This document shows, in pieces, positions 38,599 to 40,119 of a stretch of 64,000 bases of DNA. The notes under the pieces were generated by a model. It was not told the origin of the DNA. It did no database searches and was given only the letters and a program-made list of their open reading frames with translations. The position numbers and the translations under genes were made by a program. Source of the DNA: Zasmidium citrigriseum (Eukaryota > Ascomycota > Dothideomycetes > Mycosphaerellales > Mycosphaerellaceae); NCBI GenBank assembly GCA_002786025.1, contig NHNW01000038.1:186001-250000 (forward strand), written 5' to 3'. Every line of letters begins with the position of its first letter. The first letter of the stretch is position 1.

Positions 38599-39198
38599 CT
38601 TGAGAGTCTTAATGACAGGAGCAATGGGCTGGAGAAGTCAGAGAATACCTATACTTACGTTGCGGCCACCTGCAGACCAACTCAGATGTAGCGATGCAGT
38701 GAATGCACCAAGCTGCGGGGTCTGATGGCATTGTGGCTTGATGATGCACCGAGAAGGTTTACGGTCCTGCAGGTGGTGGAGGAGTCGGTTCGGGAGACGG
38801 CCTTGGCTTCGAAAGGGTCTGATCAACATTTTGAGGCAACGATCGATTCCTGAGCAAAGAGAAATGCAAAGACATCAATATTCTTTCTTTACATGCTTGA
38901 ATCACTGTCGCTTCCAATCCCATATCGTTGGGCAACTTGGAGGTCGTCGTCTGAAGCTTACTTCCCCACCCGGCTCTGCATTTATGTCAAAGGTTTCTTC
39001 CAGTATGACTCGACTGCCCTACGGCTTTTGTTGAGAGTTGTTTGATCTGTCAAGCTGTTGGATTTCTGCTGCTGCAAAGCTTGGGGATCCAGAGGTGGAG
39101 TCGAACTAGCAAGGGAGCCTGGCAAGTCTAGATCGTTCCAAACGCAAAGCTATAGTAATGCAATGCACCACTGCCCTCTCATCCAATCAGAGGACACA
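38599..39198. other. intergenic, upstream of tRNA-Gly
   Basis: 600 bp shared by the glucanase-like gene promoter (minus strand) and the tRNA 5' flank. A CCAAT motif (ATCCAATCAG, 39181-39190) sits 9-18 bp before the tRNA. No protein gene supported. Confidence 0.45.
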
Positions 39199-39222
39199 GC
39201 ATTGGTGGTTTAGTGGTAAAAT

Positions 39223-39272
39223 GTCCGTTAAACGCTTCCTGAGTCTTCAAACATCGACTAACATCCGTACAG
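39223..39272 (+). other. insert A in tRNA-Gly: spliceosomal-like intron at position 25/26
   Basis: 50 nt between the D stem and base 26. It begins GTCCGT, has CGACTAAC with CTAAC at 39258-39262, and ends CCGTACAG, ten nt after the branch motif. Size and motifs equal those of the protein-gene introns in this window. The GTCC donor is weak but also occurs in the ABM gene intron (23629-23688). Confidence 0.7.
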
Positions 39273-39284
39273 TCGTCGTTGCCA

Positions 39285-39303
39285 TCCAATCACCTTGGAA
39301 AAC
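39285..39303 (+). other. canonical tRNA intron after position 37
   Basis: 19 nt located one base 3' of the GCC anticodon, the universal position of introns removed by the tRNA splicing endonuclease. It contains CCAA and TTGG, which can pair into a small hairpin. Confidence 0.75.
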
Positions 39304-39324
39304 TCGACGAGCCCCGGGTTCGAT

Positions 39325-39376
39325 GTGAGTAGCATTACAACGCCTCTCCAACGAGCTTCACACTGACATCAATCAG
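39325..39376 (+). other. insert B in tRNA-Gly: spliceosomal-like intron in the T-loop
   Basis: 52 nt between bases 59 and 60 of the T-loop. It begins with the consensus donor GTGAGT, carries CACTGAC (CTGAC at 39363-39367) and ends ATCAATCAG. Removing it restores GGTTCGAT + TCC, the Pol III B-box sequence, and a perfect 5-bp T stem. Confidence 0.78.
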
Positions 39377-39390
39377 TCCCGGCCGATGCA

Positions 39391-40119
39391 ATTGCAAGCC
39401 GCAACGTCTAAGACGTTTGAACATTTTTTTTGCCTTTTTCTCCCAGGCCAGGTCAACCTGTCTTTTTGGCCCAAGAACGATGTTCGTATCGTTTTAAATC
39501 AATCTCGGCCTTTCAACTCAAAGACTGAGAACTCAATTGAACTTTTGCAGGAGCCCCATTTGACGTCGTGCTAAAGTGCCCTTGGAGTTGGCATTCACTC
39601 ACCAGCCCACAAGGCTTCACAAGGCTTGGCACCTGCCTCTGTTGGACTTTTTGCAGTAAATCACTAACTTGTCGCAGTTCTTTGAGTAATAAGAGATTGC
39701 TATCATTGGACGTACACATTCGAGCTCGATCGCAAAGACCAAAAACTTCTAGTCCGTGCGAAAAACCTCTCTACAGCCGAAGTCAACTTTTACCATGTTG
39801 CTGAAGGTAGGCACTGGAATTCAGCACTGAACCCTGTTTCTGAATAGCATACCGAGCCAAGAGATGCTGCAATGTCTATCTTATCATTCATACTACGCCC
39901 ACCCCTTGCTACTAAGGTGTGTCGTGACGGCTCTCGGAAGCAACTGCATTGATCAAGGTCTCATAGCATTTCGCCGCCTGTCTATTTCAAACTCGACCCA
40001 TGCGAATTGTTCAGGCCTATCATCGGCCTTGCCATGGCTTCACGCGATTCGTTGTCCACATTTCCACCTATCGAGATACCGAGTCCAAATGCCTCCAACA
40101 TCACTGACCTTTAATCAGT
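39391..40119. other. intergenic downstream of tRNA-Gly
   Basis: 729 bp. A T8 run at 39424-39431 could terminate Pol III about 34 nt past the tRNA. The rest has short frames beginning at non-ATG codons and no recognised gene. Intron-like motifs occur (for example CACTAACTTGTCGCAG near 39663), but no exon structure could be built. Confidence 0.4.
39424..39431 (+). terminator. T8 run, possible Pol III terminator
   Basis: Eight consecutive T residues lie 34 nt after the tRNA discriminator base; a second run of five T follows at 39435-39439. This is suitable for RNA polymerase III termination, though somewhat distant. Confidence 0.45.

Follow-up and report, generated by a model that had tools for sequence, protein, structure and literature searches.

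Here we report a nuclear tRNA-Gly(GCC) gene, at 39199-39390 (+) in the window (the whole 64-kb stretch of fungal DNA that was analysed), which yields a 71-nt cloverleaf once two GT-AG inserts and one intron at position 37/38 are removed. It belongs to a curated set of 19 interrupted tRNA genes from the same genome, which together hold 32 GT-AG inserts in 13 isoacceptors, with one to three such introns per gene and, in most genes, a 37/38 intron as well. Judged from the sequence, the inserts are very probably spliceosomal introns in functional tRNA genes transcribed by RNA polymerase III (Pol III), with the spliceosome removing them and the tRNA endonuclease removing the 37/38 intron. In the relevant passages of two reviews, nuclear tRNA introns are placed exclusively at 37/38 (PMC3978253) and tRNA splicing is described as independent of the spliceosome (PMC13149111); the genes described here seem to depart from both statements. 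The source assembly comprises 44.4 Mb in 148 contigs, and all paralogue searches were made within this one genome.

From 5' to 3' the gene consists of an exon of 24 nt, an insert of 50 nt, an exon of 12 nt, the 19-nt intron at 37/38, an exon of 21 nt, an insert of 52 nt and an exon of 14 nt (Table 1). By eye, the first insert (intron A) was placed between tRNA positions 25 and 26 and the second (intron B) in the T loop between positions 59 and 60. The A box is intact, and the B box is interrupted by intron B after GGTTCGAT. The joined 71 nt were called by ARAGORN as tRNA-Gly(gcc) with a score of 121.9 and with paired stems; an earlier sequence-only reading of this DNA had proposed this cloverleaf by removing introns A and B together with the ordinary intron, and its cut points proved exact to the base. 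In keeping with that reading, ARAGORN gave no call for the unexcised locus when a 37/38 intron of up to 120 nt was allowed, and the unspliced 64-kb window contained no tRNA according to ARAGORN without introns or Rfam at gathering scores. A group I or group II intron core was not supported, since the inserts measure 48-78 nt and a catalytic core requires hundreds of nucleotides; Rfam at gathering scores also matched nothing in the window. On the minus strand at 39097-39109, about 90 nt upstream of the tRNA gene, lies an isolated B-box-like stretch, CTAGTTCGACTCC. The window also encodes an Atg27 homologue with 81% identity over 81% of the query to a Zasmidium cellare protein, which suggests a Zasmidium-like member of the Mycosphaerellaceae as the host.

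Table 1 Features of the interrupted tRNA-Gly(GCC) gene and its flanks (positions in the window)
Feature	Position	Strand	Remarks
TATA-like motif TATAG	39151..39155	+	upstream of tRNA-Gly(GCC)
CCAATCA motif	39183..39189	+	possible start-site region of the putative Pol III transcript
Exon 1, 5' acceptor strand and D arm	39199..39222	+	same sequence in all four paralogues
Intron A, spliceosomal-type, 50 nt	39223..39272	+	GTCCGT...CTAAC...CAG; CTAAC at 39258-39262; common site in four paralogues
Exon 2, 5' half of anticodon arm	39273..39284	+	anticodon GCC
Ordinary tRNA intron, 19 nt	39285..39303	+	at 37/38
Exon 3, 3' anticodon strand, variable region, 5' T arm	39304..39324	+	B box up to GGTTCGAT
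Intron B, spliceosomal-type, 52 nt	39325..39376	+	GTGAGT...CTGAC...CAG; CTGAC at 39363-39367
Exon 4, 3' T stem and 3' acceptor strand	39377..39390	+	discriminator A
T8 run, Pol III-type terminator	39424..39431	+	33 nt past the tRNA

Excision was searched by brute force for GT..AG stretches of 40-125 nt with CTRAY near the 3' end (at most 45 nt from it), and at most two stretches were removed at a time. When 592 segments of 430 nt from both strands of the 64 kb were treated in this manner (21,007 variants), a tRNA call was obtained in one of the 592, which was the tRNA-Gly(GCC) locus itself. Among 94 B-box regions, GT-AG/CTRAY excision (7,085 variants) gained a call or raised the score by more than 4 points in 15, representing 14 loci, compared with one of 94 for excision with a reversed motif (4,762 control variants). 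A later test of 11 loci, run with up to three excisions, a laxer branch motif and no control, solved two by GT-AG excision, while two needed none and seven gave no call. In another test of 17 new loci, with up to three real and up to two control excisions, six were solved, three needed no excision and eight remained without a call; one new call came from the control, at the Lys locus L130, with a score of 102.8 against 104.4 for the real excision. Three older loci that were re-tested by excision (L013, L114 and L119) stayed unsolved.

The curated set was assembled from B-box and A-box pattern scans with excision tests and represents the matches listed rather than a census. The first B-box scan marked 145 places, with loci taken among the matches listed, and the genome Rfam tRNA scan likewise gives no census because it scored 63 of 1309 candidates. 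The interrupted genes are those for Gly(GCC) (four copies), Gln(CTG) (two), Gln(TTG), Pro(CGG), Pro(AGG), Asp(GTC), Val(CAC), Ser(TGA), Ser(GCT), His(GTG), Leu(CAG), Leu(CAA) and Lys(CTT) (three). Their inserts, located by eye in the 19 genes, fall in the acceptor stem, D arm, anticodon stem, variable region, T stem and T loop. The first exon of Pro(AGG) is 4 nt long, His(GTG) has an 11-nt exon in the T arm flanked by two inserts, and the last exon of two Lys(CTT) genes is 3 nt. Val(CAC) and Leu(CAG) scored above the Rfam cut-off even with their inserts in place. Lys(CTT) was retained because its three loci yield one common 72-nt product (ARAGORN 107.3, no amino acid named). These three genes (L130, L131 and L132) also have about 45 conserved nt in common downstream of the last exon of 3-4 nt. 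A less certain twentieth gene, Arg(CCT) at L146, with three inserts and many acceptor G-U pairs, was kept apart. Two candidates were dropped despite an excision gain: the Gly(CCC)-like L035, with one acceptor mismatch, and L078, with a poor T stem. No GT-AG excision was needed for Gly(TCC), Ala(AGC), Thr(AGT), Tyr(GTA), Phe(GAA) and one Pro(AGG), among others.

Further loci with tRNA-like or B-box elements were seen in the genome. L084 (C78:194100-196400, five copies), L016, L076, L077, L083, L089 and L090 form a tRNA-like family with an A box, a B box, pairable ends and a T-run, the middle of which is variable and without a clear anticodon arm. L080, L095, L100, L101 and L102 have partly Ser/Leu-like 5' parts; behind these come a block that is similar among the loci, made up of AGGTAACTAT or AGGTGACTAT and a T/C-rich stretch, and then a B box and a T-run. 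They may be degenerate forms of interrupted tRNAs, or else a Pol III repeat. L075 and L096 are tRNA-like and carry in the anticodon loop a partly conserved stretch, about 60 nt long, without a clear match to either intron type. Isolated B boxes with T-runs were found behind unrelated-looking transcripts at L017, L079, L085, L103, L105 and L106; by eye, the first three contain a box-C-like RTGATGA, which gives them the look of C/D snoRNA genes that Pol III transcribes from a B box lying downstream.

A genome search with the 24-nt 5' exon of tRNA-Gly(GCC), allowing up to three mismatches, gave four matches, all of them exact, and none for the reversed control. Both inserts occur at identical sites in all four genes, and at this threshold no uninterrupted Gly(GCC) copy was found in the whole assembly; many intact copies would have counted against the sequence-only reading. 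The exons are identical at 71/71 positions among the four genes, while intron A is 60-76% and intron B 41-89% identical between copies. In the aligned inserts the donor and branch columns are invariant in both introns, and the acceptor AG is invariant in intron B; one copy of intron A ends in AAG, which is displaced in the alignment. The 37/38 intron measures 19, 12 and 18 nt in three of the copies and is absent from the C64 paralogue. Identical exons combined with diverged inserts that have kept their splice signals are the pattern expected of selection for both the mature tRNA and the splice signals. The mature part of tRNA-Gly(GCC) thus appears to be under purifying selection, with concerted evolution of the exons alone as the formal alternative.

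The strongest single item of the sequence evidence is a pair of Ser(GCT) genes. Without its 54-nt GT-AG insert, L138 equals the uninterrupted gene L008 at 81/81 positions, and this natural intron-minus paralogue sets the cut points independently of the cloverleaf search. For Asp(GTC), the 3' exon had one genome match within three mismatches, and so did most of the 5' exon of His(GTG), in each case in the interrupted gene. We know of no substitute for the Gly(GCC), Asp(GTC) and His(GTG) anticodons in eukaryotes, and the isoacceptors are, to our knowledge, indispensable. Since only interrupted copies were found and no such substitute is known, the joined tRNAs must be made, unless intact genes have diverged or are absent from the assembly.

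All 32 inserts are GT-AG with CTRAY (CTAAC in 20, CTGAC in 10 and CTAAT in two), and in every one the branch A lies 9-13 nt from the 3' end. They end in CAG (23), TAG (7) or AAG (2), have G at +5 in 30 of 32, and are 48-78 nt long with a median of 54 nt. The narrow branch distance, the +5 G, the CAG end and the length peak all lie outside the search criteria. At ORF junctions in the window, six coding introns were read by eye; they measure 48-57 nt and contain a CTRAY whose branch A lies 9-17 nt before the end. They were used in place of a codon-usage search for coding introns, which gave one and five candidates. We take the genes that hold them to resemble GluRS, Mrpl35, Osh, Ase1, DnaJ and aquaporin. 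In GT/AG ends, branch motif and distance, and length, the tRNA inserts appear to match the U2-type spliceosomal introns of filamentous ascomycetes. The GT and AG ends, themselves part of the search pattern, are backed independently by the Ser(GCT) pair and by the common insert sites of the four Gly(GCC) genes. The donors of Gly intron A (GTCCGT, and GTCCGG in one copy) are poor. A genome count of the GTCCGT-donor pattern gave 206 matches against 607 for a reversed control of unequal composition, and is uninformative because the control is the commoner of the two, probably by composition.

The same inserts could in principle be ectopic BHB or relaxed-BHB tRNA introns of the sort known from red algae and archaea, with the tRNA splicing endonuclease as the cutting enzyme and the GT-AG look incidental. 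An endonuclease-type 37/38 intron does sit in the same tRNA-Gly(GCC) gene, and introns at many tRNA positions are described for Cyanidioschyzon and the Guillardia nucleomorph, many of those in Guillardia without a defined BHB (PMC3978253, in the part considered here). We nevertheless regard this origin as very unlikely. The strict BHB form (4-bp central helix, 3-nt bulges) was present in one of 25 inserts, taken from the final 32, with 1.8 expected from shuffles, which for this strict form agrees with the distinction from BHB introns drawn in the sequence-only reading. GT, AG and a CTRAY at a short distance from the end in all 32 inserts are no BHB signature, and the Gly paralogue inserts diverge with their donor and branch columns kept. 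A further alternative is that the genes are decayed or unspliced pseudogenes, killed by insertions, and that other genes supply the tRNAs. Pseudogenes of tRNAs are common, and some tRNA-like loci in this genome are unsolved by excision. Decay is nonetheless extremely improbable for the genes described here, as the sequence-only reading had also argued: the four Gly(GCC) copies combine identical exons with diverged inserts, and, within three mismatches, the searches with Gly(GCC), Asp(GTC) and His(GTG) exons found interrupted genes exclusively.

The inserts might also be spliceosomal but belong to transcripts of Pol II, so that the tRNA is carried inside a longer capped RNA and Pol III is uninvolved. 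Spliceosomes usually act on Pol II transcripts, the B box of the Gly(GCC) gene is split, and TATA-like motifs lie within 110 nt upstream of 11 of 14 interrupted versus 3 of 10 uninterrupted tRNA genes (the upstream sequence being short for some), perhaps as compensation for split internal promoters. In the 60 nt upstream, CAATY or GAATY occurs in 9 of 14 interrupted and 5 of 10 uninterrupted genes. Against a Pol II origin, which we consider unlikely, a T5 run starts at most 51 nt downstream of 13 of the 14 interrupted genes, and a T4 run of all 14, where the background in 56-nt stretches of the window is 1.6% for T5 or longer and 9.4% for T4; the uninterrupted genes compared have a downstream T5 in ten cases out of ten. 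The A box of the Gly(GCC) gene is intact, and T runs inside the 32 inserts do not exceed T4, a result of little weight with a T5 background of 1.5% per 54 nt. Splicing of a Pol III RNA also has a precedent in fission-yeast U6, which carries an mRNA-type intron (PMC10484740, in the passage concerned), and the sequence-only reading was wrong in holding that Pol III transcripts are not known substrates. In the present genome the U6 genes L125 (C117:112082+) and L126 (C72:164981-) are interrupted at one site, read by eye as lying between ...ATGGCC and CCTGCACTAAGG..., by introns of 58 and 56 nt with a GTAAGT donor, a CTAAT or CTAAC branch and a TAG end. A third, weaker U6 match lies at C59:490950; none of the three matches is above the Rfam cut-off, and introns were read in two of them. 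Another Pol III RNA of the same fungus is thus broken up in the same manner, with the same combination of a Pol III RNA and a GT-AG intron.

For spliceosomal introns in a functional nuclear tRNA-Gly(GCC) gene, as the sequence-only reading had suggested, stand the anatomy of the locus and its presence in four copies, the grammar of the splice signals, the Ser(GCT) paralogue that lacks the intron, the lack of an excess of strict BHB borders, the spread over many tRNA genes (15 interrupted ones besides those for Gly(GCC)) and the terminators. Other observations count against it. The exons are very short (14 nt for the last exon here, and terminal exons of 3-4 nt in Lys and Pro), which is unusual for spliceosomal exon recognition, and the split B box should weaken TFIIIC binding. 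The intron A donor is weak, and control excision also gave the L130 call.

Tani and Ohshima (1989) and Canzler et al. (2016) reportedly described mRNA-type introns in fungal U6 snRNA genes. Like those, which are present in this genome also, the tRNA introns have GT-AG ends and a fungal branch site and interrupt a Pol III RNA that is short and structured. U6 is, however, a single RNA family, whereas the introns reported here are spread over many isoacceptors, mostly beside a 37/38 intron. In fungi, ordinary spliceosomal introns are likewise found in genes for U3 snoRNA, which is small and structured but no tRNA; a passage of the 2017 paper in question states that frequent interruption is known for no small structured RNAs other than U3 and U6 (PMC5832005). 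Several introns per gene, at cloverleaf sites besides 37/38, also occur in Cyanidioschyzon merolae, archaea and the Guillardia nucleomorph; those introns are credited, in the sections of the review used here, to the tRNA endonuclease and are mostly of BHB type (PMC3978253), in contrast to the GT-AG/CTRAY grammar found here, in which strict BHB is not enriched. The introner-like elements of Dothideomycetes, described in part of PMC4457414, are mobile spliceosomal introns in related fungi and a possible source of intron gain, but the tRNA introns here are dissimilar by eye, paralogues apart. Among the matches listed from the open-licence PMC literature (preprints being outside its scope), there was no report of spliceosomal introns in tRNA genes, and the tRNA passages of PMC11782384 and PMC12730881 do not mention them. 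The new part is the apparent presence of spliceosomal introns in an RNA class where they were thought not to exist, and the known part is the same general kind of intron in U6. Because spliceosomal introns are known in that other Pol III RNA, the finding is not categorically new.

We propose that Pol III transcribes tRNA-Gly(GCC) from its split internal promoter and upstream elements. Besides an ordinary 37/38 intron, the primary transcript would contain two spliceosomal introns of the U2 type, 50 and 52 nt long, both lying outside the anticodon loop. These two would be excised by the spliceosome, probably early, and the 37/38 intron afterwards by the tRNA endonuclease and ligase. Early removal of the GT-AG introns is probable because the end-processing enzymes RNase P and RNase Z, like the tRNA endonuclease, recognise and need a folded tRNA body, which could not form with the inserts in place.

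Nuclear tRNA maturation in this fungal lineage is likely, although somewhat less surely than the intron type itself, to depend on the spliceosome, with translation requiring spliceosomal processing of Pol III pre-tRNAs and two unrelated splicing machines acting in turn on one small RNA. As every Gly(GCC), Asp(GTC) and His(GTG) gene found is interrupted, translation itself would need such processing. If this is true, spliceosomal introns constitute a new class of tRNA intron, and splicing possibly controls tRNA supply. Confirmation would mean that the spliceosome copes with exons as short as 3-4 nt in Pol III RNAs that lack a cap, and that essential genes of such genomes escape standard tRNA finders. 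It would also open to direct tests how non-coding RNAs gain introns and in which order splicing, trimming of the ends and export take place.
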